Assembly (NCBI GenBank): GCA_002448495.1
Contig: DJYL01000110.1
Location: 1-22,325 of the forward strand
Direction: 5' to 3'
Source of the DNA: Pseudoselenomonas ruminantium
GTDB lineage: Bacteria; Bacillota; Negativicutes; Selenomonadales; Selenomonadaceae
DNA length: 22,325 nucleotides
Shown in pieces: positions 202-21,623 of this stretch (positions within the stretch are counted from its first letter, which is position 1; each line of letters opens with the position of its first letter). Under the pieces are notes generated by a model. The model saw only the letters and a program-made list of their open reading frames with translations, did no database searches and was not told where the DNA came from. Both the position numbers and the translations under genes were made by a program.

Positions 202-945
202 TTAAGCGAATACGCCTGCCAAATAAGCCTCCAAATCCGTCTTGATGGGCATTACATATACATTGGCCTCTTTTTTATCCGCCATTTCCAGAACCTGCCG
301 GGAAAAATCCACGCTCCATGCCAAATCCGGTGTAAAGCTCTTGGGGAACACGACATTATTCTTGCGCTCCCAGTAGCTCTGAGAAGCCGGTGTCACCACA
401 GGCGACACGCCCCAGTAAACATCAAGACCGTCGAGCATATCCATATAAAGCTCCAGCATCCGCATATCAAAGAACGGCTGCGTGAAGAAACCTGCCGCCC
501 CGGCCTGCACCTTGCGGCGGGTGCGGTAAAGCTCATGGCGCATGGAACTTCTGTACTGGTCAATACCGGCATAGACTTTGACCTCCGGCATTTCCTGACG
601 GAACTTGCGGATGACATCCGTAGACTCTGTGGGATAAACCTCATGGGTCATGCGCTGCGGCGGGTCGCCCTGCACGACCAGAACTTCCTTAATGCCCTTC
701 TCCCGCAAATAATCCTTCATGGGCAGCTCTTTGTCCAAATCAATATCCATAGCGCGGATATGGGGCATGGACATAGGAAAATACTCCTGCGCCATTGCCG
801 AACCTTCCCAGCTGCGAATGTCAAACCGCAGAAGGTCAGGAATATTGATTACATCAATCTTGCTTTCATACTTCTGCAAAAGCATAAGCTCCCCACGCAG
901 AGATTCCTCGTCACGGGGTATAAGCTCCACGGATACTCGTTTCAT
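202..945 (-). CDS. metF: Methylenetetrahydrofolate reductase family protein (short form)
   Basis: This 247-residue protein is shorter than the roughly 290 residues usual for bacterial MetF but keeps the family landmarks. Glu7 in VSVELIP corresponds to the catalytic Glu of the FEFFPP motif. QGDPP (Asp94) corresponds to the flavin-contacting LRGDLP motif. AGAAGFFTQPFFD (Gln156) corresponds to the conserved TQ.FFD substrate site. The family reduces 5,10-methylene-THF to 5-methyl-THF on a FAD TIM barrel, feeding methionine synthesis or, in acetogens, the Wood-Ljungdahl pathway. The ATG at 943-945 has GGAGG seven bases upstream. A TTTACA-N17-TATGCT promoter lies just upstream. The downstream neighbour is an NfnA-like flavoprotein, so reduction might use electrons from that partner rather than NADH directly; this is inference. 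A divergent MetF paralogue of altered specificity is the alternative. Confidence 0.85.
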   Translation of the reverse strand: MKRVSVELIPRDEESLRGELMLLQKYESKIDVINIPDLLRFDIRSWEGSAMAQEYFPMSMPHIRAMDIDLDKELPMKDYLREKGIKEVLVVQGDPPQRMTHEVYPTESTDVIRKFRQEMPEVKVYAGIDQYRSSMRHELYRTRRKVQAGAAGFFTQPFFDMRMLELYMDMLDGLDVYWGVSPVVTPASQSYWERKNNVVFPKSFTPDLAWSVDFSRQVLEMADKKEANVYVMPIKTDLEAYLAGVFA

Positions 946-977
946 AGGCCGCCTCCAGACTTGCTGTTAATTTGTAA

Positions 978-1006
978 AGCATAAGCTGCATGAATACTAT
1001 TGTAAA
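978..1006 (-). promoter_or_regulatory. Candidate sigma70 promoter for metF operon
   Basis: On the minus strand TTTACA (1001-1006) and TATGCT (978-983) are separated by exactly 17 bases, about 33 bases upstream of the metF ATG. The -10 matches four of six consensus bases. It lies in the 96-bp gap between queE and metF, so metF does not depend on read-through from the que genes. Confidence 0.5.
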
Positions 1007-1041
1007 GTTTTTCTTATGAAAAAGCAATAGCGAAAGGTTTC

Positions 1042-1773
1042 TTAAATCTGCCCAATCATCTTATGTGTCTGAGGAATTACCCTTACATCCTTTAGTTTTG
1101 TCAGGGCATAGTTCTGGCAGATGAGAATTTTTTCCGGGCTGGCAGCCTTGCAGCCACCGTAGGGGGTCACCGGCTGAATGATGAACAGTGTTTCCGGCGC
1201 GGTCTCTGCCACTAAGTCAATGGCCTGCCGGAATTCTTCCTCCGTGGTTTCTGCTGCCACCACCAGCTTGATGTACAAATCCTTGGCCTTGGCAATTTCG
1301 ATAAATTTGCGGTGCTCCTCCCACTGCGGACGGCTGATAATGCTGGGCAGCTTGATGTCCATGCTGATGATATCCGCAACATCTATAATGCTTGCCAGTT
1401 CTTTATACAAGGTACCGTTGGTTTCCAAAAAGACAGGCACATGAACAGCCTTGGCCACTTCGCGGATAAATTCTGCGTGCAAAAGCGGCTCACCGCCGGT
1501 AAAGCTCACGGCCTGATGGGGAACTTCCTGACAAAGCCTGTTTATCTCCATCGCCACCTGCTCTGCCGAGCGCGGATTGGGGAGCGTTGCAAACTCCCGG
1601 CTGCCGGCGTAAGTTTCCACCTCGCAGGACTTATGGCTGCCCGGCGTATTTTCCGTATCACAGAAGCTGCAGTCCAGATTGCAGCCTTCAAAGCGCACAA
1701 AAACCTGACGGCAGCCCACATATTTGCCCTCTCCCTGTATGGAAGAAAAGATTTCAATAAGATTCTTCTTCAT
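1042..1773 (-). CDS. queE: 7-carboxy-7-deazaguanine synthase (radical SAM)
   Basis: QueE converts 6-carboxy-tetrahydropterin to 7-carboxy-7-deazaguanine, the ring-contraction step that makes the 7-deazaguanine core of preQ0 and queuosine. The 243-residue protein starts with the family's N-terminal signature (IEIFSSIQGEGKYVG...VFVRFEG). It carries the radical-SAM cluster CNLDCSFCDT with Cys31, Cys35 and Cys38, and the SAM-binding FTGGEPLLH motif at residues 91-99. Length is typical for Gram-positive QueE. The gene starts 11 bp after queD stops, so they form one operon driven from the strong promoter upstream of queD. No queC or queF is visible in the window. Confidence 0.96.
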   Translation of the reverse strand: MKKNLIEIFSSIQGEGKYVGCRQVFVRFEGCNLDCSFCDTENTPGSHKSCEVETYAGSREFATLPNPRSAEQVAMEINRLCQEVPHQAVSFTGGEPLLHAEFIREVAKAVHVPVFLETNGTLYKELASIIDVADIISMDIKLPSIISRPQWEEHRKFIEIAKAKDLYIKLVVAAETTEEEFRQAIDLVAETAPETLFIIQPVTPYGGCKAASPEKILICQNYALTKLKDVRVIPQTHKMIGQI

Positions 1774-1784
1774 AACGCAATAAC

Positions 1785-2162
1785 TCAGTCCTTCGTGTAG
1801 GTAACGCTGGATTTTGGTGATTCAAAGACCGTTATCGCCGCCAAAACGCTGTCGCGCTTAAAAATCTCATTACTGGCCAATTCTTCAAAGATAATCCGGG
1901 CAAGATTTTCCGCCGTAGGATTTACGCCATCCTTAAAGGGAGCCAGTTCATTGAGATAATGATGGTCAAAGCGTTCCAAAATATCCTTCAAGGTCTGCTT
2001 AATATCCTTGAAATCCACCAGCATGCCCAGTTCGTCCAGTTCCCGGCCTTTGACAACCGCTTCCACCACCCAGTTATGCCCATGCAAACGAGCACATTTA
2101 CCGGGATAACCATTGATATGATGGGCCGCTTCAAAAGCGCCCTCTACTTTTAACGTATACAT
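1785..2162 (-). CDS. queD: 6-carboxy-5,6,7,8-tetrahydropterin synthase
   Basis: QueD makes 6-carboxy-tetrahydropterin from 7,8-dihydroneopterin triphosphate, the substrate of the neighbouring QueE. The 125-residue protein shows the small T-fold layout. FEAAHHI (His15) and LHGHNW (His27, His29) give the zinc-binding histidines, and CARLHGH supplies the nucleophilic Cys23. FDHHYLNEL and a C-terminal VFESPKSS with the conserved substrate-binding Glu follow. Start at the ATG 2160-2162, preceded by AAGGAG. queD and queE are 11 bp apart and share one promoter. The leader is only about 30 nt, too short for a preQ1 riboswitch, and none is seen. Confidence 0.96.
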   Translation of the reverse strand: MYTLKVEGAFEAAHHINGYPGKCARLHGHNWVVEAVVKGRELDELGMLVDFKDIKQTLKDILERFDHHYLNELAPFKDGVNPTAENLARIIFEELASNEIFKRDSVLAAITVFESPKSSVTYTKD

Positions 2163-2199
2163 TATCGAAAAACTCCTTACCTATTATAAAATATACATG

Positions 2200-2228
2200 A
2201 TTATAACACCTTCAAGCAGTCCTTTCAA
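2200..2228 (-). promoter_or_regulatory. Strong sigma70 promoter for queDE
   Basis: TTGAAA (2223-2228) and a perfect TATAAT (2200-2205) on the minus strand are separated by exactly 17 bases. The predicted start is near 2193, giving a leader of about 30 nt that contains the queD ribosome binding site. Confidence 0.85.
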
Positions 2229-2239
2229 CACAAGCAAAG

Positions 2240-3508
2240 CTATACACCCTGCCACGGCGCCCTGACAGCGGGCAATGACCTTATCTGCTTATCCTGTAAT
2301 TCATAAGCTATGCCGTTATCTGCCAGCTCCTGCAAAAAGGCCTTTAGATAAACAGGACTGGAAAACTTCTGCATGAAATCCAGGGTGAATTTACCATTTA
2401 CCGCCGAAATTTGCAGGGTGATGTCCATAATGGTGGCATTCCAGGCATGGAACTCTTTTACATATTTTTCTGCTTCCCCGAAATTGGCTTTCCCTACATA
2501 ACTCACGTTAGCCGCAGCAAAACGATTGGCGGCCTCGTCCACCTTTGCCATCATCGCCAGCCTTTCCTTGTGCGTTTTCTTTGCCAAAAGCATTTTGGTC
2601 AGGCCGGCAGTATGCGCCACGCCGGACAGAACAGCTTTCTCACTGGTCTGCGCCGCAACCATATTCCTATAGGCCTTTACCTGCTCAGAAAGCGGCAATT
2701 TACGCAGCTGTTCATCATATTCCAGGAAAGCACCGCCGACCAGACTTTGATGCGCCAGCGGAGCGTGCAGAGCCTTGCGCTGATTAATACACAAAACAAT
2801 GCGTATGCTTTCTCGGGCATGAGGATACAACTTTGCCAGACTGCGGCTCAGAAGCAATGACACCATTGTTCCCGGACTGCCGCCATTTTCTTTGCAAAAG
2901 TGCATAAAGGCATCTTCAGCCAGCAATATGCTATATACATAGTCCGGGCTTTCCGTATGCAGATTAGCGGCGATACCGGGCAGCAGCGCATTGCTCCACT
3001 CATGACGCCGGGGCGTTGGCAAGTCTTGTGCTTTCATTACGGGACAATCCCATTCCTCCTGAGATATTTTATCGCCAGCCAGACGGATACCTGCTGTCGA
3101 AAGCGTCACCTTGTAGCGCTGACAGCAGTAATAATACAACAAGGTGCGTATCACCTCATAAGTTCCTGCACCATCGGTCAGACCATGAAAAATATCCATA
3201 ACCAGCCAATCAGCATGGTACGAAAATGAAAGCAGATGATTATTTGCTTCTGCCGAATTTAATGTTACGCCCTGCTCTGAATCGGAAACCACTACCGGCT
3301 CACGATTCTCTGCAAAGATAAAATCATCACCACGAGCCTGCAATTTCACGCAAAAATACGGATACCGCTCCATCGTGGCATCCACTGCCCTGCGCAGTAC
3401 CACAGGGTCAACATCATCCTGCATCCGTATCCGTATTCTAATGGCATACGGATTATCCTTATGCAGCCGATAAAGGGGAATGACCTCGGTAAACAATTTC
3501 TGTTCCAT
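2240..3508 (-). CDS. Condensation/acyltransferase-like protein (CAT superfamily)
   Basis: The frame is open further upstream, but I place the start at the ATG 3506-3508, which has a perfect GGAGGTG eight bases before it. This gives 422 residues. The start of the protein (LYRLHKDNPYAIRIRIRM...VDPVVLRRAVDATMERYPYF) reads like the first subdomain of condensation or alcohol-acetyltransferase enzymes. FHGLTDGAGT at residues 107-116 is a version of the HxxxDG active-site motif (His108, Asp112). FLEYDEQLRKLPLSEQVKAYRN and VSYVGKANFGE resemble the second subdomain. Members transfer acyl groups from CoA or carrier proteins to alcohols or amines. No carrier protein or NRPS/PKS gene is nearby, so substrate and product are unknown. 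It seems monocistronic, placed between the que operon and the decayed toxin locus. Confidence 0.75.
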   Translation of the reverse strand: MEQKLFTEVIPLYRLHKDNPYAIRIRIRMQDDVDPVVLRRAVDATMERYPYFCVKLQARGDDFIFAENREPVVVSDSEQGVTLNSAEANNHLLSFSYHADWLVMDIFHGLTDGAGTYEVIRTLLYYYCCQRYKVTLSTAGIRLAGDKISQEEWDCPVMKAQDLPTPRRHEWSNALLPGIAANLHTESPDYVYSILLAEDAFMHFCKENGGSPGTMVSLLLSRSLAKLYPHARESIRIVLCINQRKALHAPLAHQSLVGGAFLEYDEQLRKLPLSEQVKAYRNMVAAQTSEKAVLSGVAHTAGLTKMLLAKKTHKERLAMMAKVDEAANRFAAANVSYVGKANFGEAEKYVKEFHAWNATIMDITLQISAVNGKFTLDFMQKFSSPVYLKAFLQELADNGIAYELQDKQIRSLPAVRAPWQGV

Positions 3509-3544
3509 GCCAGCACCTCCAACACAAGCTACAATAATTTTACC

Positions 3545-3571
3545 ATAAAAAGAAAAACGGCACGAGCCGTT
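3545..3571 (-). terminator. Intrinsic terminator (minus strand)
   Basis: AACGGC-TCGT-GCCGTT forms a 6-bp stem with a tetraloop, followed on the minus strand by TTTTTCTTTTT. It lies between the doc remnant and the condensation-like gene, 37 bp upstream of that gene's start, so the gene must use a promoter very close to its start. Confidence 0.65.
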
Positions 3572-3602
3572 GTCCCGCACCAACATAAAATATATATGCA
3601 CA

Positions 3603-3655
3603 GATAAAAGAGCACAACCGACTTCTTGCTTAGAAATCAGCTGTGCTCTTTTATC
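3603..3655. terminator. 14-bp perfect inverted repeat, probable bidirectional terminator
   Basis: GATAAAAGAGCACA (3603-3616) and its exact complement (3642-3655) are separated by 25 bases. Each arm gives an A-rich 5' and T-rich 3' edge, so it can terminate transcription from either side. One arm overlaps the last codons of the doc remnant. Alternatively it marks the breakpoint where the 3' end of doc was replaced. Confidence 0.5.
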
Positions 3656-3921
3656 CATTTTATAGCATGAACTGCCGTCCGTTTATTCCCATCAACAAAA
3701 GCATGGTTGTTGGCAATGCCATAACAAAGCCTAGCCGCTTTTTCGCAGATAGTTGGGAAAAGGTCTTCACCGCCAAACGTTTAAAAAGGTGAATTGACAG
3801 CCGCTTCTAACAGAGCCATATCTCTTACTCCGTTTTCGACTGGAATATCACTTTTTTCCAAGTCCGCATGGAACTCTAAAATATCCTCTAAAATGATAGG
3901 TACTAGGTATTCAACATTCAT
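3637..3921 (-). pseudogene. doc: Death-on-curing (Doc/Fic family) toxin, inactivated
   Basis: Translation from the ATG 3919-3921 gives a normal Doc N-terminus (MNVEYLVPIILEDILEFH... then ALLEAAVNSPF). An in-frame TAA follows at codon 47 (3781-3783). The same frame then continues TFGGEDLFPT...NNHAFVDGNKRTAVHAI, the Doc/Fic active-site signature HxFxxxNKRTA, before a stop at 3637-3639. Intact relatives read PF-Q-TFGGEDL, so one CAA-to-TAA change explains the stop. The C-terminus is also short: the frame ends about 12 residues after the signature, where about 30-40 more are usual. Doc toxins phosphorylate elongation factor Tu. This copy should be inactive unless the stop is read through. The start codon overlaps the stop of the antitoxin gene (ATGA). 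Confidence 0.85.
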
Positions 3922-4088
3922 TTGTCGGCCAGCCTTCTGTATAAATTCTCATTTTTTTTCATGAGTTCCTTGGACACATCCCTCATTAGTTGTTTAATAT
4001 CTTTATTATTCTGGGATGTCAATACAATCCGTTTAGTCTGGGAGCCAAAATTATTTTTCATTTGTGCTACCACCGTGTCTTTATTCAT
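3918..4088 (-). CDS. Small antitoxin partner of Doc (56 aa)
   Basis: The ATG at 4086-4088 is preceded by GGGAGGTG and encodes a 56-residue polar protein (MNKDTVVAQMKNNFGSQ... to ENLYRRLADK) rich in Lys, Asn and Asp. Its stop overlaps the doc start as ATGA, the usual antitoxin-first arrangement. I recognise no named fold. The antitoxin role is inferred from size, position and overlap with a clear Doc gene. It has a near-consensus promoter of its own and appears intact, although its toxin is broken. It is not an obvious Phd homologue. Confidence 0.7.
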   Translation of the reverse strand: MNKDTVVAQMKNNFGSQTKRIVLTSQNNKDIKQLMRDVSKELMKKNENLYRRLADK

Positions 4089-4191: not shown

Positions 4192-4455
4192 TCAACTTCG
4201 TTTTTTATTACGCACCTGCATTTCAATATCATAGACAGTGTTCTGGTCATCTTCCACATAGACATCCAATCGTACGCCCTTGCTTTCGTAACGTGCCTTC
4301 ACCGATTTTTCTTCATCTATATACTTGATATCACGAATTGGAATCTACAGCAGCTTCTCCAACATCTTCTTGCAAATCCGCTTACGGCTCATGATGAGCT
4401 TGAACATATAGTCATCCTGTATGGTCAGTTCTTCCCATGGTTTGATTCTATACAT
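4192..4455 (-). pseudogene. Rpn-family PD-(D/E)XK nuclease/transposase remnant
   Basis: From the ATG 4453-4455 the frame reads PWEELTIQDDYMFKLIMSRKRICKKMLEKLL, then a TAG at codon 37 (4345-4347). It continues IPIRDIKYIDEEKSVKARYE and GVRLDVYVEDDQNTVYDIEMQV, then ends at 4192-4194. This is the N-terminal part of the Rpn (recombination-promoting nuclease, PD-(D/E)XK transposase-like) family, which is common in many copies in Selenomonadales. The RLDVYVEDDQN...YDIEMQ stretch holds the nuclease core residues. Intact members run to about 280-300 residues, so roughly 200 C-terminal residues are missing as well as the nonsense codon. Its promoter and ribosome binding site still look intact. Confidence 0.85.
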
Positions 4456-4517: not shown

Positions 4518-5915
4518 TTATTTAGATTTTGTTACTTTTGTTAAGCGTCTTCTTATTTTGGTCATATGTCTTGATTCACATTTATCTATAAAAATATCCT
4601 TTCCCATAGTTTTTCGTACTCTTTTTATGTATGTTATGAAATTTCCCTCAAATTTCTTAAACTTAAATATTCTATCGATGCTTTCTTGTTTCTTTTCTTT
4701 TTTACTTTTGGAATCTGAATATAGTCTATATAAACTATTCGTTTCCATTCTCTTATGCTTATATAGCCAACGACCAACCGTATTTACTTTCCGATGCATT
4801 CGATAGTAATATTTCGTCGTAGTTTTATCTCTAATCTTAACTGTTGTTCCATCAAAAGTAAATCCCAAATAATCTAACATTTGATTTAGATCTTCTCCGC
4901 CTACTGCAAATTGATGGCTTACATTGGTTAAGTTTCCCTGTGAATACGAGAATATCTGCGTTTTCTTTCCTTCAAGAATTAAGTTTGGTATTTCATATAT
5001 AATTCTATCAACGATATATTTCCTATGCATAAATATATCATTATTATGACCTGGAATCACCGCGATAAAATCATCACTATATCTCATATAAAGTCCTTTT
5101 AACTTATTGATATAGTTATTCATATCATAATCAAATTTCAGCATATATACATTAGCTAACACAGCACTAATAGCAGACCCTTGCGGTATTCCTTTAACTT
5201 TATTTTTTTGAACTGCATAATGCCATTTTCCATCTTTCGCAAAACGTCTAGCTTTAAATTCATGAAATTGTTCTATTGTCATAATACGTTCTTTAGAATT
5301 CAACTTCCGCAGCGTTTTCCTTCTATTCTTTAATCTGAAATAAGATAGAATATCTTCTAACATGCAGTAACTATACTTTGTGATACTTTTGAAGACTGCA
5401 TAGTAATCATTAGGTAACTGTGCGCAATCAAGTAAGTCACATAGTCTCTCCTTTAGGTATTGATGGTCCAAACTATCAAAAAAGCTCTTAAAATCACCTA
5501 CAATAATGTAACATTCATTATTTTTCATGATAAAATCAAAAACACTATATGCAAAATCTACATTATTTTTATGCAGGTTATTTCTATATGCTACCGCACA
5601 TTCATTAATACCATCCGCTTTTGCTCTTATATTATACTTTTCGTTAATAAGATATGCATAGTATTGATAAATACAACGGTCTATATGCGCTGAATAACTC
5701 AATGGTCTTTTTTTATCTTTTAATTTATTATTTGCATGACTGTACTTCGAGCAATTTTTTTCAAATGTTATAAACGGATAAAAATCGTGTCCTTTTATTT
5801 GATTTGGATTTGTAATATATTTCCATACTGTATCACTTTTCAATGATACCCGATTGTCAAAATGAGCATATTTTTTTATTTCTTCATTAGTTTTTCTAAA
5901 ATCTTCAAAATTCAT
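4518..5915 (-). CDS. Defence-type (UG/DRT) reverse transcriptase, probably DRT2-like
   Basis: The 465-residue protein carries a complete RT core. Motif A is YIIVGDFKSFFDSLDH (catalytic Asp141), motif B is GIPQGSAIS (242-250) with VLANVYM, and motif C is YMRYSDDF (YSDD 279-282). These are followed by LEGKKTQIF and LDYLGFTFDG. There is no maturase, endonuclease or retron VTG motif, so it is neither a group II intron nor a clear retron RT. About 110 basic residues follow the core, a likely RNA-binding thumb. I choose the ATG 5913-5915 because AGGAATAGG precedes it; the upstream ATG at 5930 has no ribosome binding site and abuts a terminator. The gene is AT-rich compared with its neighbours, suggesting transfer. 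Directly upstream is a structured RNA with its own promoter, the layout of DRT2 and DRT9 systems. DRT2 assignment rests mainly on that RNA; its family placement by phylogeny is untested. Confidence 0.9.
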   Translation of the reverse strand: MNFEDFRKTNEEIKKYAHFDNRVSLKSDTVWKYITNPNQIKGHDFYPFITFEKNCSKYSHANNKLKDKKRPLSYSAHIDRCIYQYYAYLINEKYNIRAKADGINECAVAYRNNLHKNNVDFAYSVFDFIMKNNECYIIVGDFKSFFDSLDHQYLKERLCDLLDCAQLPNDYYAVFKSITKYSYCMLEDILSYFRLKNRRKTLRKLNSKERIMTIEQFHEFKARRFAKDGKWHYAVQKNKVKGIPQGSAISAVLANVYMLKFDYDMNNYINKLKGLYMRYSDDFIAVIPGHNNDIFMHRKYIVDRIIYEIPNLILEGKKTQIFSYSQGNLTNVSHQFAVGGEDLNQMLDYLGFTFDGTTVKIRDKTTTKYYYRMHRKVNTVGRWLYKHKRMETNSLYRLYSDSKSKKEKKQESIDRIFKFKKFEGNFITYIKRVRKTMGKDIFIDKCESRHMTKIRRRLTKVTKSK

Positions 5916-5933
5916 ATACCTATTCCTCATCGC

Positions 5934-5979
5934 AAAAACCCGTCGGTTTGAAGTGGCAACGTCTCCACATCCGACGGGT
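5934..5979 (-). terminator. Terminator hairpin ending the RT-associated RNA
   Basis: ACCCGTCGG (5971-5979 on the minus strand) pairs with CCGACGGGT (5938-5946). Inside is a second stem GTGG/CCAC with an 8-base loop. A T-tract follows on the minus strand (5937-5934). It ends 18 bases before the preferred RT start, so RT expression requires read-through. The stable nested stem may also be a binding element for the RT. Confidence 0.85.
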
Positions 5980-6022
5980 CTTTTGATTTGATATTCTTTT
6001 CAGAACAGTTGCCATAAATTGC

Positions 6023-6030
6023 GATTACAT
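6023..6030. repeat. Template-jump repeat, 3' copy (GATTACAT)
   Basis: GATTACAT here and GATTGCAT at 6185-6192 match at seven of eight bases and are offset by exactly 162 bases. A cDNA ending in GATTGCAT can pair with this stretch of the RNA with only one G-U wobble. This would let the RT jump back to the start of the template. Confidence 0.6.
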
Positions 6031-6037
6031 ATCATGT

Positions 6038-6043
6038 TATAAT
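6038..6043 (+). promoter_or_regulatory. -10 half of split promoter (TATAAT)
   Basis: Perfect TATAAT on the strand opposite the RNA, 32 bases before the Shine-Dalgarno of the 54-codon frame. No good -35 lies upstream of it in the chromosome. Its matching -35 is at the far end of the unit and becomes adjacent only in head-to-tail repeats. Confidence 0.6.
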
Positions 6044-6176
6044 GATATTGACTACAATATTGTCATTGATTAACGGAGGTATGACAATGATATCCATTAC
6101 ATTAACAGCATCATTCATCATTAAGCTTACGCTTAGAATACTCTGGATATTCTCCAGGAATCCACACGTCAAATTC

Positions 6177-6182
6177 TTGACA
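6177..6182 (+). promoter_or_regulatory. -35 half of split promoter (TTGACA)
   Basis: Perfect TTGACA near the end of the unit. After joining 6192 to 6031 the spacer is 6183-6192 plus 6031-6037, exactly 17 bases, giving a full-consensus promoter TTGACA-N17-TATAAT across each repeat junction. Confidence 0.6.
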
Positions 6183-6184
6183 AA

Positions 6185-6192
6185 GATTGCAT
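6185..6192. repeat. Template-jump repeat, 5' copy (GATTGCAT)
   Basis: Partner of GATTACAT at 6023-6030. It lies two bases from the hairpin at 6195-6214, which could block the RT at the 5' border of the template and trigger the jump. Confidence 0.6.
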
Positions 6193-6221
6193 TCTCTCGC
6201 GCCTTTTGCCGAGACAATTTT

Positions 6222-6250
6222 ATTATAGCACAAAATCCATCAATGAGCAA
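6222..6250 (-). promoter_or_regulatory. Promoter of the RT-associated RNA
   Basis: TTGCTC (6245-6250), 17 bases, perfect TATAAT (6222-6227) on the minus strand. The predicted start is near 6215. The 51 bases between this and the end of the DUF4160 gene hold nothing else I can identify. Confidence 0.8.
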
Positions 6251-6301
6251 CTCACAGCAACTCTTTTTTGTGCCTTCTTTTCAAAATATCATTAGCGGTA
6301 T

Positions 6302-6571
6302 TTATCGTTTAAGTTCAGCATGCTTAAAGTGCATAACCCAAAGTGCCAGTAAACGCTCTTTGTTTTTCCTGATATACCGTAAAACTTTTGCCATATCCTT
6401 TTTATCGACTGTACCGCAATCTTTAGCAATTTCCACAGAGTCAGAAGTCAACCAGAATTTTGTTGCCTTGTCAGGGTGTCCTTTTGCTACATGGACATGA
6501 ACTGGCTCACTAACGCCATCCCCTTTTACAAAAAAAGTATAGCCTAAGTATGAATCAAGCAAGTCTGGCAT
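6302..6571 (-). CDS. DUF4160 family protein
   Basis: The start is taken at the ATG 6569-6571 because GGAGGG precedes it by nine bases; this gives 89 residues beginning MPDLLDSYLGYTFFV. The EPVHVHVAKGHPDKATKFWL stretch matches the HxHV core of DUF4160 proteins, and KVLRYIRKNKERLLALW is a typical C-terminal helix. Its function is not established. DUF4160 genes usually sit beside a second small gene (often DUF2442) in toxin-antitoxin-like pairs. Here the start overlaps the end of the upstream small gene by 17 bases, so the two are translationally coupled. It is the last gene of the hsd-linked run before the RT system. Confidence 0.8.
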   Translation of the reverse strand: MPDLLDSYLGYTFFVKGDGVSEPVHVHVAKGHPDKATKFWLTSDSVEIAKDCGTVDKKDMAKVLRYIRKNKERLLALWVMHFKHAELKR

Positions 6572-6833
6572 TTTTCTGTTCCCTCCAGTCATCCCAAATG
6601 ATAGACTCATTGACCGTCAGATATTTTTCTATGCCAAATAAATCATCCTCTGAAAAACCGAAAGACTTCAGGCAAGTCATATCAGGCAAACGCCACTCGC
6701 AGAAATTATCTTCATGCTCCTTTTGCTCGATTCTGATTGCTAAATTAATGCCGCCGTCTCTATCCTCATACTCTTTCGTTACATACACATTAAGATAAAC
6801 ACCATCTTTTAAGATAAAGGTTGCATATAACAT
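6555..6833 (-). CDS. Conserved-looking small hypothetical protein coupled to DUF4160 gene
   Basis: A 92-residue acidic protein (MLYATFILKDGVYLNVYVTK, then RDGGINLAIRIEQKE, WRLPDMTC, and GFSEDDLFGIEKYLTVN). It looks like a small alpha/beta fold with an acidic C-terminal half, and has no signal peptide or membrane segment. I do not recognise a named family. It starts 23 bp after hsdS with GGAAG as ribosome binding site, and its end overlaps the DUF4160 start. Placement makes it the likely partner of DUF4160, in the slot where DUF2442 is usually found. A two-gene toxin-antitoxin-like unit is inference only. Confidence 0.7.
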   Translation of the reverse strand: MLYATFILKDGVYLNVYVTKEYEDRDGGINLAIRIEQKEHEDNFCEWRLPDMTCLKSFGFSEDDLFGIEKYLTVNESIIWDDWREQKNARLA

Positions 6834-6856
6834 TTATAACACTTCCTTTCAAAATG

Positions 6857-8101
6857 TCATTGGCGGAATGTGACTTGACCGTTCATCAGCATAGGAAGAA
6901 GAAAGTCTCGAAGATAAGTAAGTTTACGATTTTCTTGGTTACACTTAACCATTTGTTTATGAATTGGTTTTATCCGCGCCTCAAATCGTCTTAACACCTC
7001 ATAAGGCGGTATAACAATTCGACTTAATTTCAAATGATCTTGTGTTATATGTCCCATGGTTGTTTTTCTAGCTTCAGCAATTTTAACAAAATTAACTATA
7101 TAATCTTTTAACTGATGATATATATATTCCTTGGGAAAATCTTCAGATGGTATTACTTTGAAAATATGTTGGTTCAGCCCGCCTTTACCACCAGTCCAGT
7201 ATTGAATTTCCAGAGTTGCTGACCATGAAAAAAGTATATCTCCATCACCAATAACATTCTCTAACGGAATATTTGCTGATACACGTTCAGTATCCGGTCT
7301 AACCCCTTCATGCATTTCACGAATTTTTATAACCGGTAAAGATTCCTCATTGCCCTGCGGACGATATTTTTGACAGGCTAAACCATTTACATACGAAGCT
7401 ATGCGAAATAAATTATCAACTTTCCACCCTGCCGGGATTTCTCGGGATAGGTTTTCGTTCCATTCCATTTTGCCGCCGCTAGTTTTGTATGGGCGGCCAT
7501 TGGCATCAGGGAAGTCGAATTGGACGAACCAGTAGTCGTAAAGGGTCTTAGCCATAGATTCCAATGTAGTAATCAACTTACTATTATTTTTTATTTTATC
7601 ATCTATAGCCTGCAATTCATTGGCAATTCTATACTGTTCTTTCAAATCAGGCAATTCAACTGGTAATTTTTTTAGTATGGCAGAATTAAGATTTAGCATC
7701 GTTGCACCTGTGGCATTATCAACAATCCACTTTCTTATATGAGGCGTACTTAAATAAAAACTAAGAAACACAGCATTAACCAGCATTTTATCAGGGCGAA
7801 TTCTTAAACACCCAGTTCCGCATAACGCACCTGCATCATTTTCTGAAATTAAAGCACATCGCTCTATATTACCTCGGCGACTATATACAATATCTCCAAT
7901 CTCAACTCTGTATTTTTTCAATCGTTCGGCATCCTGTTCTGTAATATGAGCAATCCTATCGTGAATTACAATTCTATCTCCTATATCCTGCGGCATAATA
8001 GAAGGTATCCCCTGCTCAACATAATCCGATGCATGAAGTTGCGAACCGAAAGGTCCTGTAATTATATCTGCTAAATCCCCCAGACAAACCTTTTTATACA
8101 A
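6857..8101 (-). CDS. hsdS: Type I restriction-modification specificity subunit
   Basis: HsdS chooses the DNA target for the methylase and restriction complexes. The 414-residue protein has two target-recognition domains. The first begins VCLGDLADIITGPFGSQLH and the second begins REIPAGWKVDNLFRIASYVNG. They are joined by the conserved helix-linker LESMAKTLYDYWFVQFDFP-DANGRPYKTSGGKM, and a C-terminal helix reads ENRKLTYLRDFLLPMLMNGQV. I choose a TTG start at 8099-8101 because GGAGG lies nine bases upstream and it comes one base after the preceding stop. A further TTG at 8144-8146 would add 15 residues that overlap the antitoxin gene. The recognition sequence cannot be read from the protein by eye. 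It is separated from hsdM by a two-gene toxin-antitoxin-like insert. Confidence 0.95.
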   Translation of the reverse strand: MYKKVCLGDLADIITGPFGSQLHASDYVEQGIPSIMPQDIGDRIVIHDRIAHITEQDAERLKKYRVEIGDIVYSRRGNIERCALISENDAGALCGTGCLRIRPDKMLVNAVFLSFYLSTPHIRKWIVDNATGATMLNLNSAILKKLPVELPDLKEQYRIANELQAIDDKIKNNSKLITTLESMAKTLYDYWFVQFDFPDANGRPYKTSGGKMEWNENLSREIPAGWKVDNLFRIASYVNGLACQKYRPQGNEESLPVIKIREMHEGVRPDTERVSANIPLENVIGDGDILFSWSATLEIQYWTGGKGGLNQHIFKVIPSEDFPKEYIYHQLKDYIVNFVKIAEARKTTMGHITQDHLKLSRIVIPPYEVLRRFEARIKPIHKQMVKCNQENRKLTYLRDFLLPMLMNGQVTFRQ

Positions 8102-8102
8102 A

Positions 8103-8333
8103 TTAAGCCGCCTCCGAATAATCCACAATAAAGATTTTGCTGGCAATTTTTTCTAGGTGTTCCAATAAATCCTCAATCTTTTCCATTACCGTAGCAGAAT
8201 AAACTACCTCACCACACTGCTCACATTTATAGCAAGGAACATTTTCAATAATCACATAACCGCCATTTACTCTAGCAAAATAACTTTCTTTTGCAGGAAT
8301 CATATTCCCTGATTTACATAACAGGCAATTCAT
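8103..8333 (-). CDS. YgiT/MqsA-type zinc finger protein, probable antitoxin
   Basis: The 76-residue protein has paired CxxC knuckles, Cys3/Cys6 (MNCLLC) and Cys37/Cys40 (YKCEQCGEVVYS), the N-terminal zinc domain of MqsA/YgiT antitoxins. It ends in a short helix (VMEKIEDLLEHLEK) and lacks the DNA-binding HTH of full MqsA. In this family the zinc domain binds the toxin. It follows the DUF4258 gene by six bases, with its ribosome binding site inside that gene's end, giving the toxin-first order typical of mqsRA. Its stop is one base before the hsdS start. Confidence 0.85.
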   Translation of the reverse strand: MNCLLCKSGNMIPAKESYFARVNGGYVIIENVPCYKCEQCGEVVYSATVMEKIEDLLEHLEKIASKIFIVDYSEAA

Positions 8334-8339
8334 ATTTGG

Positions 8340-8651
8340 TCACACCTTTCTCGTCTTCAAGTCAGATTCCCATTTATCGACATCGGGAAAATATGCCGTT
8401 ATAATCCGACTGGCATTTCCTTCATCACTCATCACAACATGCAACGGCTGTACATTTACAGACAATCCCAACAACAAGCAGGACGGATATGGATAGTCCT
8501 CTGGATATTGCTCAATAATCTCGCCAGTCTTTACAGCGTTACGAATATCTTTGACCTTTATCCCTCTTTGCCTAAACCTTTCCGCAGCATGAGCAGTAAT
8601 GAATACGCGGTCATTATCATAGTACCATTGCAATCGCTCTATATCAATCAA
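8340..8651 (-). CDS. DUF4258 family protein, probable RNase-like toxin
   Basis: The 103-residue protein shows the DUF4258 signature ITAHAAERFRQRGIKVKDIRNAV (His21, Arg25, Arg29), then a middle beta region (YPSCLLLGLSVNVQPLHVV) and RIITAYFPDVDKWESD. DUF4258 belongs to the BECR/RelE-like fold of small ribonuclease toxins and is often paired with a YgiT-type zinc finger, as here. The start is TTG at 8649-8651, the first possible start after an in-frame TGA. It overlaps the last codons of hsdM, so its translation is likely coupled. Toxicity is inferred from family and context. Confidence 0.8.
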   Translation of the reverse strand: MIDIERLQWYYDNDRVFITAHAAERFRQRGIKVKDIRNAVKTGEIIEQYPEDYPYPSCLLLGLSVNVQPLHVVMSDEGNASRIITAYFPDVDKWESDLKTRKV

Positions 8652-10284
8652 ACTTCAACTCACCCAACCCTTTTAATATTTCTGCTTCGAGCTTATGTCC
8701 TTCATCGAAGTACGTTTTAAGCTGCTGTTCGTAGTCAGCCATTTTCTGCTGAAATTCTTCCGGGGTCAGGTCAACATATTCAATCTTGACCTTGAAGTAC
8801 TGGCCTGCGGAGAAGGAGCATTTCTTTTGCTCAATGTCTTTAAGACTGACAAGAACGCTGAAATCGTCGATTTCCTGTCGCTCATTCATGGTCTGGACGA
8901 TTTTGTCCATTTCAGCCTGACTTAGATAGGTGCGCTGATTCTTGGTGCCTTCAAGTTTGACTTTTTCGCCCATATTTGACGCGTCAACCAAAAGAACCTT
9001 GTCATCCTCTGTACCTGCGGCATCAAGGAACAGTACCGAAACATTGGTGCCGGTGTTGGCAAAGATATTACTGGGCATGGAGACAACGCCGCGCAGGAGT
9101 TTTTTCTGGACGATATGCTGACGGATTTTGTAGGGAATGCCTGTGGCGGCGGTCAAAAAGCCTGTGGGCACAACGATGGCGGCTTTGCCGTGTTCCTGCA
9201 TGCTGACAATGATATGCTGCAGGAACATCTGGTAAATGGCCATGCTTTCCTTTTTCTTTTTGGGGATGTTGGGCACACCGGCGAAGAAGCGCTTTTTGTA
9301 GCCTTCGCCTGCCAGCTGGTCGCGCGTTTCGCTGAAATCGGTATTGAAGGGAGGATTACTGACGATGTAAGCGAATTTTTCAATGCTCTTGCCGTCTGCG
9401 GACAGATGGCGCGGACGCACCAAGGTATCATCCTGAATGACATGGGGCAGACTGTCTACGAGATTGTTGAGGATAAGGTTCAGCCGCAGGACTTCATTGG
9501 ACTTTTGACTGATGTCCTGTGTGTAAACGGTGCAGTTTTCCTCACCTATCTGCTCGGCCAGCGTAAGCACGAGCGTGCCCGAACCGGCTGCCGGGTCATA
9601 GATGCTGACATTCTGTGCGCCATTGGGGGCGATTATCCTCGCGATAATCTGTGCAATAGAATGGGGCGTATAGTATTCGGCATACTGACCGCTGTCCTTA
9701 TTGTAGTCCTTTATCAGATACTCAAAGATATCGGCATAGAAATCGTATTTCTGCTGAAATACGGCATCAAAGCTTTGGGCGTTGAGTTTATTGATGATAG
9801 CCCGACAAAAATCGTCCTGCCGTTCTACTTCGGTGACCAGATTCGACAGGGTATCAAACAGGCGCACGCGATTCTGCGCACCGGCTGCTACCGAGAATAC
9901 ATCCTTATTGGCTTCGGCGATATGCAGCAGGGCATTGTCAAATATCGTATGAAAGCCCTGCTCCCCTTTGCGGGAAAACAGGCTGCTGATAAGGTCAGCC
10001 GGATGAATACGGGCAATGCGTGGGTCTAAGTCCATCATCAGAAAGTCAAAATCATCTTCAGACAGCTCTGCCAGACGGCGTTCCGTTTCCTGCGTGGACT
10101 TACCTGCAAAATCCGGCAGTTCTTTAAGCCCGGCAAGGAATTTATCATTTAAGAATTTGTATAAAAATGCCTCCGTGATGATTTTGTACTCATTGCCGCT
10201 GTTGCCCAGACCATAATTGGAGCAGATGGCTTTGAGGTCATCAATGAGGGCATATATCATTTGTTTTTCGGTTTGTAATTGCAT
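8644..10284 (-). CDS. hsdM: Type I restriction-modification DNA adenine methylase subunit
   Basis: The 546-residue N6-adenine methyltransferase has the HsdM N-terminal helical domain (about 1-170), then YAEYYTPHSIA (202-211). The SAM-binding motif I is DPAAGSGTL (230-238), and the catalytic NPPF is at 310-313. HsdM with HsdS methylates the recognition sites that protect the host from HsdR. Start at ATG 10282-10284, with AAGGAG before it, 15 bp after hsdR ends. Its last eight bases overlap the DUF4258 gene. All motifs are intact. Confidence 0.97.
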   Translation of the reverse strand: MQLQTEKQMIYALIDDLKAICSNYGLGNSGNEYKIITEAFLYKFLNDKFLAGLKELPDFAGKSTQETERRLAELSEDDFDFLMMDLDPRIARIHPADLISSLFSRKGEQGFHTIFDNALLHIAEANKDVFSVAAGAQNRVRLFDTLSNLVTEVERQDDFCRAIINKLNAQSFDAVFQQKYDFYADIFEYLIKDYNKDSGQYAEYYTPHSIAQIIARIIAPNGAQNVSIYDPAAGSGTLVLTLAEQIGEENCTVYTQDISQKSNEVLRLNLILNNLVDSLPHVIQDDTLVRPRHLSADGKSIEKFAYIVSNPPFNTDFSETRDQLAGEGYKKRFFAGVPNIPKKKKESMAIYQMFLQHIIVSMQEHGKAAIVVPTGFLTAATGIPYKIRQHIVQKKLLRGVVSMPSNIFANTGTNVSVLFLDAAGTEDDKVLLVDASNMGEKVKLEGTKNQRTYLSQAEMDKIVQTMNERQEIDDFSVLVSLKDIEQKKCSFSAGQYFKVKIEYVDLTPEEFQQKMADYEQQLKTYFDEGHKLEAEILKGLGELKFD

Positions 10285-10299
10285 GTATAAGATTTCTCC

Positions 10300-13200
10300 T
10301 TACTGGATGTATTCGTTTTTGATTTCATTGCCGATGGCTTTTACCACACTGGCATTCAGGAGCAGTTTGCCGTTTAGCTGCTGCTTAATCTCACGCCAGA
10401 GCATTTGCTCGAAGAAATTTCCATTGGACAAGATTGTTTGCTTATGCAGCAGGCTGTCGTCGATGTAGGACTTCATATCGGTCAGAAAGTCAAAGGTCAC
10501 GGCCTGTGAGGATAGCAGCCCTGCTCGGATTAAACTCTTATGCAGGCGCATGTAGCGAACATCGCCGCCATAACGAGCCGTAAGCCTGTCATTGGCTGCA
10601 TTGATGTCGTGCATTTTCTGCCGCAGTATGGCAAGTTTTTCATCCTGCGCCTGCATTTCCGCCAAGGTCATCTGCTGGATGTCGTGCCCCTCCAAAATGC
10701 GCCGCAATTCTTCCCACAGCCGCAAAAACTCCGGGTCTTTCCTGTCCTGATTGCTGCCAAACTCACGGATGGTCTGCCGCCGCTTACTTGCGAAGGAATC
10801 GGCCAGTTCCAGTTCGCTTTCGCTGATTTTGCGGAAGGAAAAACGGATATCCTGCGTGGCTAAATCCACAAGGCTGTCGATATCCTCAGGGTTCTGCAGG
10901 GCTTCTTTTTCGCGGATAAGCTGCAAGCGCTGACCGGTCAGCTGGCTGAGTGCCCGTATTTTGTCGCGGTCAAGACTTTTCAGCAAATCCTCATAACCAA
11001 ACAGCTGTGCCAGATTGTATAATTCTTTATACAAGGACAAGGCGCGATACAGGTCGTTTACCTCGTCCTTGTTTTCGATAGCGGAAATCTGCCGCTGGAA
11101 ATTTTCCAGATTGTCCGTGTCAAAGGAAAAGAGCTTGTCACGGATTTGCCTTAATTCTGCGTTGATTTCCTCAGGGGTCTTGAAGATGCCGGTAAACTGT
11201 GTAAAATCATCACCCAGCTCCTCCTGCAGTTCTGCTAAATAGGCCTGATTGGTCTTGTCAAACTCACTGCGGATATCGGCAAAGTCCACCACATAACCGT
11301 AGCGCAGCTGATGATAAGGACGATTGACACGGGTAAGGCATTGCAGGAGGCTGTGTTCCCGAATGACACGACCAAGATACAGCTTCTTGAGCCGTGGCGC
11401 ATCAAAGCCGGTCAGCAGCATATTATAAACCACGAGAATATCCACTTCGCCACGCTTGAAGGCATCCCGCTTTTCCTTTAATTCTTCCTGCGTTTCCCCC
11501 AGCGTTGAAAGCACCAAGGCTGCACGGAAGTTGCCGCGTACCTTTAGTTCCTCATAGATGGCCTGCGCCTGTCTGCCCGAATCGGCCACCACCATAGCAC
11601 CGATGGTTTTATCCCCCAAGAGCAGCCGGGAACCAGTAAAATCCTCCTCGATATAGTCAACCAAGGGCTTTACATAGTTTGCATGACAGGTCAAATCCTG
11701 CTTATGGATAAGGCCTTTTCTCACTTCATCCTGTAGTTTATCCAAAGCGGCATTAAGCTGCAGGCGGTATTCCGTCTTGATGCCTTCGCGGATAAGACGC
11801 AGGGTATAACCATCTGCAATAGACTGATTGTAATAATATTTGTGGATATAATCACCGAACAAGTCCTTTGTGCGTACCTTGCCGATAAGCGGCGTGCCGG
11901 TCAGTCCGAACATAACCGCCTGACGGTCAGAATTCACGAGCCGCGCCAAAAAGGAACCATCCGCGCGATAGTCACGATGTACTTCGTCAATAAAGTACAC
12001 ACGCTGGATGTTTACATTGTAGTCCGGCACTTTGGCCACAGCATCATCACCGAATTTCTGAATGTTGACCACATTCATGACCAGTCCGCCGGATAGGGTC
12101 TGCTCACTGGTGCTTTGGATATTTTTCGTAAACTCTGCCCGCGTGCCAATCTCCACGACATTGAGCCCGCGGGCGCGGAATTCATCCGCCGCCTGCTGCA
12201 TCAAATCAAGGCGGTCAACGATAAAATAAAACTTCGCGACAATACGGTGGACTGCATAATAATCAGCAAGAATGTGGACGTTATAAAAGGCCAGTTCCGT
12301 CTTGCCGCTGCCCTGCGTATGCCAGATAACGCCGCCGCGAGCGCGGCTTCCTTTCCTCACGGCATGTTGACGGGGCAAATCCGCCACCAGTTCCGTTTCA
12401 TGGTGTACATACTCGTTCATGTAGAACGCATTATCTGCTACCACTTCATCTGCCACGCGTAAAGCATCCACCTTGCGGGCAATCGCCTGAGCACCGAAGA
12501 ATTGCTGATAACGCATCAGATGCTTGCTTATCTCCATGACACCTTTATCGTTTACCTTTTCCACATAAGTGATGCCATAATGAAGCAGCCAAAGAAAACG
12601 CTCTTTCGTAAACAGCGAGGTCAAAATTCTGTTGGTCGGTGTCATGGGTTCACAGTTCAGAGCGTAGTCGGCACGCCCTTTGAGGACGGTCATATGATTA
12701 TCCTGCAAGATATTGTCCTCGTCAGCCGGGCTTAAAGGGGCAACTCCCTCATAAACAGAATTATCTTCTTCGCGGAAATGGCTGAAAAACAAATGCCCTA
12801 GGCCATTTGTGGCATAGAAAGCCCCGGATAGGGGTACGGCTTCCGTATCGTCGTATTCCATATTATTGGAAAAAACCATCAGCTGCGTGCTATTGAGGAA
12901 ACGCCTGTACCTCATGTTGCTCGTGCGCTTATTCATGCGCTCGTATTCCGCCTGCATTCCCTTTAGGTTATTGGGGATTTTGACCTCACAGAAAGCCAAG
13001 GGCAGGCCATTGACAAATACCGTTATATCCGGGCGAAAACTCCCTGCTTCACTTGACTGGTCAACCAAACAGGACAGTTCCGTTACCACAAAGTAGTCAT
13101 TGTCCTTTGATAGGTCAAAGGATATAAGCTGTATGGCTTCACCACGACAGACTATCCCCTGTTGCAGTTTGCCCCAAAAAGCCTGACCTAAATCATCAGC

Positions 13201-13440
13201 AGCCAGACTGTCCGACAACTCGGAAAGGATAGCCGAAAACTCCTCATCGGTCAAAGGATTCTTGCGGAGGGCCGGATTAAGTCTGTTCAATGTATCACGC
13301 AAAATCTGTTTTGCAATATTCGTTTCCCTGTCCAGCTGAGGACGAATATCCTGCAGCCGCCGATAGCGATAGCCCAGACGCGTAAAATGCAGCAGTGCCG
13401 GTATTTTGACGCGCGAATCTTCGGAGAAAGCCCTGGCCAT
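10300..13440 (-). CDS. hsdR: Type I restriction endonuclease motor subunit
   Basis: HsdR translocates DNA and cuts it when HsdS finds an unmethylated site. I choose the ATG 13438-13440 (AAAGGA ten bases upstream) over a GTG nine bases earlier, giving 1046 residues. The PD-(D/E)XK nuclease motif is RPDITVFVNGLPLAFCEVK (Asp138, Glu152, Lys154). Walker A is IWHTQGSGKTEL (near 372-383) and the helicase motif II is DEVHRDY (485 onward), followed by FGLTGTPL (motif III). Later helicase motifs and a long helical C-terminus follow. Length is typical of the family. It is the first gene of the hsd operon, 15 bp before hsdM. Confidence 0.97.
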   Translation of the reverse strand: MARAFSEDSRVKIPALLHFTRLGYRYRRLQDIRPQLDRETNIAKQILRDTLNRLNPALRKNPLTDEEFSAILSELSDSLAADDLGQAFWGKLQQGIVCRGEAIQLISFDLSKDNDYFVVTELSCLVDQSSEAGSFRPDITVFVNGLPLAFCEVKIPNNLKGMQAEYERMNKRTSNMRYRRFLNSTQLMVFSNNMEYDDTEAVPLSGAFYATNGLGHLFFSHFREEDNSVYEGVAPLSPADEDNILQDNHMTVLKGRADYALNCEPMTPTNRILTSLFTKERFLWLLHYGITYVEKVNDKGVMEISKHLMRYQQFFGAQAIARKVDALRVADEVVADNAFYMNEYVHHETELVADLPRQHAVRKGSRARGGVIWHTQGSGKTELAFYNVHILADYYAVHRIVAKFYFIVDRLDLMQQAADEFRARGLNVVEIGTRAEFTKNIQSTSEQTLSGGLVMNVVNIQKFGDDAVAKVPDYNVNIQRVYFIDEVHRDYRADGSFLARLVNSDRQAVMFGLTGTPLIGKVRTKDLFGDYIHKYYYNQSIADGYTLRLIREGIKTEYRLQLNAALDKLQDEVRKGLIHKQDLTCHANYVKPLVDYIEEDFTGSRLLLGDKTIGAMVVADSGRQAQAIYEELKVRGNFRAALVLSTLGETQEELKEKRDAFKRGEVDILVVYNMLLTGFDAPRLKKLYLGRVIREHSLLQCLTRVNRPYHQLRYGYVVDFADIRSEFDKTNQAYLAELQEELGDDFTQFTGIFKTPEEINAELRQIRDKLFSFDTDNLENFQRQISAIENKDEVNDLYRALSLYKELYNLAQLFGYEDLLKSLDRDKIRALSQLTGQRLQLIREKEALQNPEDIDSLVDLATQDIRFSFRKISESELELADSFASKRRQTIREFGSNQDRKDPEFLRLWEELRRILEGHDIQQMTLAEMQAQDEKLAILRQKMHDINAANDRLTARYGGDVRYMRLHKSLIRAGLLSSQAVTFDFLTDMKSYIDDSLLHKQTILSNGNFFEQMLWREIKQQLNGKLLLNASVVKAIGNEIKNEYIQ

Positions 13441-13473
13441 GCCTGTCACATCCTTTGTGTGTTATTATCTCTT

Positions 13474-18028: not shown

Positions 18029-21000
18029 TTACCAAACACGGCGGAACATCATGCTGGCGCTTAAATCCTTGTCATGCGCCCCCTTTTGCCACTGGACATC
18101 ACCGGCAATCTGCCAGCCTTTGGCAAATTCCGTTTCGCCGGAAAGCCCTACCACGGCATGGGTCTTGTCCTGATTGTTCCTCAGCGTATAGCTATGGTTA
18201 TTGTCACCTTCGTAGTTAAATTGCAGCTCCGGGTCAGCACCGCTAAACGCGTGTTTTACCCCTAAACGCATAGCATAGCTGCCGCGCCCCAAATAACGCT
18301 TCAGCTCTACGCCCATCCCCAGAGCAAAGTACGTATTGTTTTGCGCGGAAAACTGCTGATTGTAAAGACCCGCGCCCTGTTCCTGGCAGCCATTCTGATG
18401 CATATACGAAAGCTGCATATTGGCATAGGGGCTGACGTGCCATACTTTGCCGTCTTCGGCATGCAGGTCGTATTTGTATTCCCCGCCGATTTCCACCAGA
18501 TAGCTGCGGTAATCAGCCGTCGGCGAAAGCCCCAAAGCCGCTATGCCGCGCCGCATTTTGTTCCGCTGCCAGCCGTAATCCGCATACCAATAAGCATCCC
18601 TTGCCCCTTTGCGATAGCCGCCGTAGATGCCCACACGCGTGTCGTAGATATTGGCAGACGAATTGTCCGCGCCCAAGCTCATCGCATTGTAGGCCACGAA
18701 CAGCCCGCCGCGCGTATGTTTGCCAAAGGACTTATCGTAGCCGCCGGAAATCGCACTGCCGTGGTAATTGGCACCGCCCCGGAGGTCGCCCCAGTTTTTG
18801 GTGAATTTTACCCAGGCCCCGTTCTCTTCCTCCACAGGCAGATTTACCGGCACCTCTACGCCATAGTCCTGGCCATCATCAGCAAGATTATTGCCGCCGA
18901 TATGCACATTGACCGGCTGCAGGGAAAAGGCTGTATTCAGACGGTCAGAAATGACATGTGCAGCCAATGTATTCGTCTGCACGAGATTCATCGCTTCGCC
19001 TGCCCTTGACGCACCGATATCCGTCAGGGCAGATTTTGCGCTGTCCGGTTCTAATTGATAGAGCGTGCGCATTTCCTCGCGCCGGGCATCAGGTAAATTT
19101 TGATACATGCTGTTCATCGCCGCCATGGTTTCCCGCTGTGCAGAGGTAGACTCACCTAAATTATCCGCCGTCACGGTGCTGACACGAAGCACACCGCCTG
19201 CTGTTTCAGTATACTGGCTGCTCATGCCGGAAACAATCGCAGGATTATCCTTGTTGTTCGCTATTACACCGATTATGGTTCCGGCCTTGACCACTTCGTA
19301 GTCCTTGTCCGGCATGGTGTCATTGACCAATACCATGGCATTGTCAAGATTGGCTGTATGGTTGACAATAAACTGGGTATTGCCACTATCATTGACATTG
19401 GAAACCAATGTTCCACCCTGACTGTCCAGATTATTGACGGTCAAATTGCCCTCACCCAAAAATCCTGCCACAGCCACAGACCGGTTGTTAAGCGTACCGC
19501 CTATCTCACCACTGCCCATAAGCGTTCCCGTATTCGTAACCGTGGCATCGCCGGCTATTTTCCCGTTTATGGCCAAAATGCCCTCATTAACCGTAGTCAT
19601 GCCCGTATGGGTATTATTACCGGTGAGCAGTAATGAGCCCGCGCCGGTTTTTATAACCTGCCCTTCACCGGTAATCGTACCGCCGTAGATATTTACTACG
19701 TCTTCGTCCAAATCCACCGTCATATTGGCAAGGGTTTTACGGCTGGGATGGGCGGCATCCGTGCCGTAGGCTTCACTGGCACTGCCCAGGTTGATCACCG
19801 AGGAATGGTCACTGTCCGTGTCGTCCAGATCAGCCACGGTAAAATTCTCACCGTGGGCTTCGTCTGTCTTCTTGCCGCGGGCCACCAAAAATACATCTAT
19901 ATTTTCCAAATCGGCATACGCATCGTCAGTTACGTCTAAGCCTCTGCCATGCTCTTCGGAACTTTCCGTCAGCAAAGATGCAGCTGCACTTCTTTTGCCT
20001 TCCCAATCAATCTTTGCCTTACTCATCCATGCTTTTTCATCATAATCGTAGACATAACTTACGCCACGGCCTTCATAGCCGGTATAGTCAGCAAAAAATT
20101 CTCCGGCCTGCAGAGCAACCGACGCGGCCGTGCCATCCGTGCTGGTAGTCGTCACTTCCACCACGTAATTCTTGCCCTTGGGCAGCAGGACATATTTCTG
20201 CAAGTCCACGGTGCGGTAACCGGCATAAGCAGGCGTACCGTCAACGCCAAAGGTTCCTGACTGGGTGTAGAGAACACTGCCCTCCCCCGGCGTGCTGCCC
20301 TCTCTTACGGTGATGTCATACTTCATATTGCTGGTGGAGGCGTAAAACATCACGCCTTTGAGAAAGTGATTCTGACTGGCTTGAAAGGATGATGCTATGG
20401 GCTGGGAAGTAAACGTCTTTCCTGTATCGGTGATTTGACCCAAAGTAAAAGAAGGCGCGGGCGCATTGTTGGCATTTATGGTATAACGGGCAGAATCAAG
20501 TTCAGCCTCATGAAAATAGAACCACCCCATCGAGGAATCCCGATAGGAAATATAGCCGTACCCTTCATTGCCAAGATTTGTCCCCCAACTGTTGCGGATG
20601 ATAAAACCACCCTGCAAAGCGTTGCCATTCTCATCCTTGCTCTGAAATTGGTAATCATCATCCCAGCCCACCAGTGTCTGGGCATGATTGAACTGGCCAG
20701 AGCCATACCACTCTCCATGATCAATGAATCTCTTTGCCCCACTGGCATTATTCGCCATCATGATAACACCCTTGTCCTGAATGAAGTTCTTTACCTGCCG
20801 CAAGGCATCTGCCGATAATCTCCCCTCATAGGTGGGGAGGATGGTGTAACTGTCATGGATGGAACCAACCGCAGGGATGGTAGCGGCAATGGCACCTTTC
20901 TGATTTCCATAACTACTCCACAGTTCGGCTTTACGAGTTTGCGTATAGTTTGCTATTGCCTCCTTATATTTTTCTCTATCCGTCCACCCCTGCCTCACTA

Positions 21001-21568: not shown

Positions 21569-21623
21569 CTTCCTTACTCCCTTAAATAAAAACCAATCCA
21601 TAGTTGTCATTACGATGATTCAG

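Follow-up and report, generated by a model that had tools for sequence, protein, structure and literature searches.

A divergent DRT2 locus of Pseudoselenomonas ruminantium is predicted to template an endless neo gene and to jump on AU

The mechanism by which a reverse transcriptase (RT) copies part of a non-coding RNA (ncRNA) repeatedly into the gene neo has been established for Klebsiella-like DRT2 and, in the available text of the two reports that describe it (PMC12039810, PMC11100668), its steps are known from the Klebsiella system only. According to the same text, two ACA motifs flank the Klebsiella template (PMC12039810, PMC11100668), and units of close homologues measure 111–129 nt (PMC12039810). 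For more divergent DRT2 clades, the available part of the preprint (PMC11100668) states that annotation of Neo ‘was more challenging’ and proposes alternative mechanisms; our literature search on neo in such clades returned nothing past this remark, and the journal version of the preprint may treat them. DRT9 and DRT10, which are class 2 UG RTs, likewise copy an ncRNA template repetitively, as far as the accessible sections of PMC12483538 and PMC12632851 describe them.

Here we compare with these systems a locus in a 22,325-nt stretch of Pseudoselenomonas ruminantium DNA (contig DJYL01000110.1), which we refer to as the window. As in the Klebsiella pneumoniae DRT2/Neo system (UG2), a single RT gene lies behind a pseudoknotted ncRNA of about 280 nt, the reverse complement of which bears permuted TATAAT and TTGACA boxes 17 bp apart across the junction, together with a stop-free unit divisible by three that would encode hydrophobic repeats. 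The RT gene (4518–5915, minus strand) encodes 465 aa from its second ATG, or 470 aa from 5930, and carries a YSDD active site. Two Drt2 profiles matched the protein with E values of 2.7e-136 and 4.8e-85 and outranked all other models, the best non-Drt2 RT profile reaching 3.8e-19, and the predicted structure is a DRT2 fold with an intact catalytic YxDD.

To place the RT among its relatives, we searched genomes, plasmids, phages and viral contigs. A search of genome contigs yielded one DRT2 locus, and whole-genome searches yielded 11 of 380, 4 of 398 (the window's own genome being counted in both), 1 of 43, 7 of 348, 4 of 398 (the earlier loci once more) and 1 of 82. Two close relatives, P0002 (83%) and P0003 (65%), were covered as proteins. 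A single-sequence query found no relative in viral contigs; further searches of these contigs gave one Klebsiella-like locus and, with an alignment as the query, eight matches, of which L035 was kept and seven short, weak ones were dropped. The resulting RT tree had 47 rows, comprising DRT2 loci, seven database proteins and the Klebsiella RT, and was built without L022, L033 and L052, which are short, and without the repeats L043–L046. The window RT fell among DRT2 loci, within a 21-row group with support of 100/98 that we term clade A; the Klebsiella RT lies outside it, in a separate group of 13 rows (100/99). By profile, sequence, tree and predicted fold, the window RT is a DRT2, as the first-pass annotation of this DNA had suggested, and the locus as a whole is very probably a DRT2 defence system made of this single RT gene and its upstream ncRNA.

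The predicted ncRNA (5931–6215, minus strand; about 285 nt) starts 7 nt past its −10 box and ends just before the RT gene, the 3′ end being approximate. Its folding surpassed that of 200 of 200 shuffles (z = −4.54). The predicted promoter (6222–6250, minus strand) has a perfect extended −10, TGCTATAAT, in which TATAAT at 6227–6222 is accompanied by a TG extension, and a −35-like TTGCTC at 6250–6245 that matches in just 3 of 6 positions; our promoter scan requires at least four matches of six per box and so did not list this promoter. Three elements of the RNA, all on the minus strand, covary across 9–11 loci. The 5′ handle, a TCTCG...CGAGA hairpin at 6195–6214, was counted in 9 of the 12 clade-A loci (L005, L007 and L012 being left out): 90.5% of cells were paired, all seven pairs had changed on both sides, and none of 500 shuffles equalled the covariation score, although one of the five measures used, that of further pair types, did not set the handle apart from shuffles (188 of 500). 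Downstream, UGGCAAC (6008–6014) pairs with GUUGCCA (5954–5960), which lies inside the loop of a scaffold hairpin (5938–5979; stem 5971–5979 with 5938–5946), forming a pseudoknot. In 11 loci, 99.4% of cells in pseudoknot and hairpin paired and 15 of 16 pairs had changed on both sides (7 of 7 in the pseudoknot, 8 of 9 in the hairpin), a level that 0 of 500 shuffles attained; this alignment is biased toward the structure because its strands were cut by hand, a whole-scaffold MAFFT alignment being too ragged for pair counting. As the first hand-cut set took gaps, L005 was omitted and a different register was chosen for cutting L007 and L012; by eye, and outside the count, 5 of 7 positions of the L005 pseudoknot strands pair. 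The first-pass annotation had described an RNA of roughly 283 nt with its own promoter and terminator, of which the RNA and the promoter were borne out and the terminator was not. A scan of 5800–6400 found no terminator, and we rejected the reading of the 3′ hairpin as one, since in 11 loci it is a conserved scaffold helix with its loop engaged in the pseudoknot.

On the opposite, plus strand, the template region carries TATAAT (6038–6043), a Shine–Dalgarno sequence GGAGG (6076–6080) with the predicted neo start ATG (6087–6089) 7 nt after it, an open frame and TTGACA (6177–6182); these elements, in the permuted order noted at first pass, were all located. Spacing the two boxes by 17 bp across a junction dictates a unit of exactly 162 nt, or 54 codons, the length proposed earlier, and the predicted template is 6027–6188 on the minus strand, the cDNA being the plus-strand neo unit. 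The unit is free of stops for any junction position inside the spacer, and the mean hydropathy of its neo frame is 1.05. In our best explanation, which we hold with high confidence, the RT would copy 6027–6188 repeatedly into 162-bp repeats that yield both a promoter and an endless neo gene.

An arrangement of this kind might also arise by chance in AT-rich DNA next to an ordinary RT, given that the region is 64% AT, that TATAAT-like hexamers are common in it and that the open frame extends beyond the unit to 6500. Chance was gauged on dinucleotide shuffles of 5921–6330 and on 410-nt tiles from both strands of about 439 kb drawn from this genome and the window. The full set of features (two perfect boxes spaced by 17 bp, a length divisible by three, an endless frame, and an ATG with a Shine–Dalgarno match of 5/6) was absent from all 20,000 shuffles and all 4,286 tiles, and relaxing the boxes to 11 of 12 matches gave 1 of 20,000 and 2 of 4,286, respectively. 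By the 11-of-12 measure, the antisense strand qualified in 7 of 13 clade-A loci and the sense strand in none of the 13. A strict automatic count (each box at least 5/6, total at least 11/12) recorded an endless in-frame unit in 10 of 13 loci as against 58 of 4,286 tiles, and such a unit with ATG and Shine–Dalgarno in 7 of 13 as against 2 of 4,286. These controls and the recurrence in sister loci leave chance a negligible probability, recurrence having already largely refuted it.

That recurrence extends over the 14 of 21 clade-A rows for which DNA was at hand, among them Negativicutes, Candidatus Flemingibacterium, other Bacillota and a faecal phage contig. A split promoter and frame missing from relatives had been named at first pass as evidence against the proposal; instead, the layout fits 12 of the 14 loci, with units of 138, 144, 147, 162, 162, 165, 168, 186, 189, 192, 192 and 192 nt, compared with 111–129 nt on the Klebsiella side. 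The boxes are weak in L028 (−10 of 4/6) and L007 (5 + 5 of 12). An ATG with a Shine–Dalgarno match of at least 4/6 is present in 9 of the 12, the poor starts being those of L004 (3/6), L007 (2/6) and L012 (none found). In L013, which was kept in the 13-locus counts with its RT start misplaced, no in-frame unit emerged even after re-anchoring on the RT start; the 5′ handle and TTGACA are present upstream of this RT, and the locus perhaps holds a decayed template or another layout. The remaining locus, L011, was excluded from the 13-locus counts because a transposase-like gene replaces its ncRNA region: at 316–3953 (minus strand), its clade-A RT is flanked by two near-identical 369-aa genes with an HTH_38 domain, possibly of IS30 type, one of them in place of the ncRNA. 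In L016, on a faecal phage contig, group II intron domains (RF02001, RF01998; 252–564, minus strand) lie upstream of the DRT2 gene. Across 37 DRT2 loci including clade A, a perfect permuted pair at 17 bp with an endless frame occurs in 9.

Next, we located the likely join between laps. GATT occurs on the plus strand at 6185–6188 and 6023–6026, so that the ncRNA (minus strand) reads AAUC at both places, exactly 162 nt apart. The first-pass annotation had put the junction near 6192/6031; the offset profile across clade-A loci led us to set that position aside for 6188/6027, 4 nt away and at the place homologous to the Klebsiella ACA motifs, a move that retains the unit length and changes one base per unit. 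ACA is absent from these homologous sites. In clade A, we compared the dinucleotide whose last letter lies 5 nt past the −35 box with its counterpart at the corresponding position ahead of the −10 box: both are AT in 11 of 12 loci and TT in L012, that is, AU in 11 and AA in 1 in the ncRNA sense. The two sites are identical in 6 of 6 loci picked without the motif and in 12 of 12 overall, the latter figure being partly circular and the former not, because six loci (L003, L005, L007, L008, L012 and L028) had tied −10 boxes and the AU-consistent option was kept; in the window ncRNA, two dinucleotides agree by chance with a probability of about 0.075. In a frame-blind test using only hexamers and the jump dinucleotide, the top candidate proved to be an endless in-frame unit for 11 of 12 loci, and in L008 such a candidate ranked second. 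The branch is thus predicted from these sequences to jump on the two letters AU rather than on ACA. We consider it unlikely that the RT makes repeats and neo with laps joined elsewhere in the spacer, for example at 6192/6031, the AU match not being the signal: the endless frame survives any junction in the 17-bp spacer and the shared runs at the clade-A sites are short (2–5 nt), but a match in 6/6 and 12/12 loci occurs at no offset other than the one homologous to the Klebsiella ACA sites, its neighbour reaching 5/6 and 6/12 and the others at most 2/6 and 4/12.

As a positive control, L034, a viral-contig locus whose RT is 63% identical to that of Klebsiella, returned the published layout with a unit of 117 and TGT/TGT in the cDNA sense; L018, a second Klebsiella-like locus, gave a unit of 111 with TGT/TAT only. 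The same scan of the Klebsiella-side clade produced no convincing unit in L019, L023 or L051, and no common jump motif was evident among the DRT2 loci outside clade A. Clade A and these two Klebsiella-like loci also differ in phase: 12 of 12 clade-A loci have the −35 box in their endless frame as TTG ACA (L004 also having a second open frame), whereas L034 and L018 read it as (x)TT GAC A. Outside clade A the phase is mixed and TTG ACA is thus no hallmark of that clade: among 12 other loci, three (L009, L026 and L019) had top candidates in this phase, L010 having no candidate.

A related concern is whether the repeats are read as a gene. The cDNA could be made yet be non-coding and act as DNA, like the poly-dA of DRT9, with the open frame incidental; related class 2 systems do employ non-coding cDNA in the part of PMC12483538 available, the Neo repeats of clade-A loci resemble one another in little except the residues determined by the boxes, and a good start is missing in three loci. 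However, unit lengths divisible by three, a stop-free frame over the junction and the junction promoter boxes recur together, and the neo frame is on average more hydrophobic (mean hydropathy 0.79) than the other two frames (−0.16 and −0.67), L028 being an exception. We therefore regard a non-coding role as very improbable.

The copying of an endless coding unit, our preferred reading, allows us to propose a course of events by analogy with Klebsiella. We suggest that the RT, bound to the scaffold, copies the template from 6027 to 6188, whereupon the nascent ...AT end would shift from jump site 1 (6185–6188) to jump site 2 (6023–6026), re-annealing via the shared AU, and the next lap would start. 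Rolling-circle copying of this kind would string 162-bp repeats head to tail, bringing the −35 box of each together with the −10 box of its successor to form the junction promoter. Upon phage infection the repeats would be turned double-stranded and the promoter would fire; translation of neo without a stop would then yield hydrophobic repeats of 54 aa and lead to growth arrest, the endless gene thus probably being growth-stopping.

The 5′ end of clade-A ncRNAs is related to the Rfam RNA RT-6 (RF03027), unlike those of the Klebsiella-like L034 and L018, whose 3′ scaffolds match RT-12 (RF03016; 1322–1451 with 80.0 bits and 1334–1446 with 72.9 bits, respectively). The RT-6 model covers the 5′ handle and the start of the template, including the UUGUCAA that encodes the −35 box, but with its 75 nt it reaches the first quarter of the ncRNA only. 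At the gathering threshold the Rfam scan of the window gave no match; the window scored 21.7 bits over the full model, below the 46.7 cut-off. RT-6 was above threshold in L002, L028, L004 and L053 and below it in L003, L016, L013 (37.4 bits), L008 and the window, and at E ≤ 0.5 it matched 8 of 12 clade-A loci, L005, L006, L007 and L012 being without a match. The function of RT-6 is, to our knowledge, unexplained, and our literature search on it returned nothing relevant among the matches listed; the clade-A loci offer the explanation that RT-6 forms the opening stretch of a template for a hidden gene.

The class of mechanism is already known; the literature searched made no mention of clade A's jump signal, its range of unit lengths or its connection to RT-6. 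We consider it likely that clade A, RT-6 carriers included, represents a Bacillota-wide DRT2 branch that uses an AU hinge per lap instead of ACA, templates of up to 192 nt and a Neo frame shifted over the promoter boxes. If so, the jump would be governed mainly by RNA architecture and would need no fixed ACA motif, and neo genes would be readable in genomes far outside the Klebsiella group. One clade beyond that group would gain a testable rule (a 17-bp junction promoter, an AU signal and a unit of 46–64 codons), which provides a simple scan for genes invisible in the chromosome.

The surroundings of the locus in the window, all on the minus strand, include further mobile and defence genes. 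Just downstream of the RT, 4195–4455 holds a PDDEXK_2 transposase/nuclease remnant with an in-frame stop; of its two pieces, searched apart, only the second matches Pfam. A defence island (6302–13449) contains the type I restriction–modification genes hsdR, hsdM and hsdS, the last two separated by a small DUF4258 gene; also in the island, a DUF4160 protein and a 92-aa neighbour adjoin the DRT2 ncRNA. Last, 18029–21610 encodes an autotransporter whose parts are a passenger (papain-type C1 peptidase and lectin-like), a PATR repeat and a β-barrel, consistent with a diderm host.
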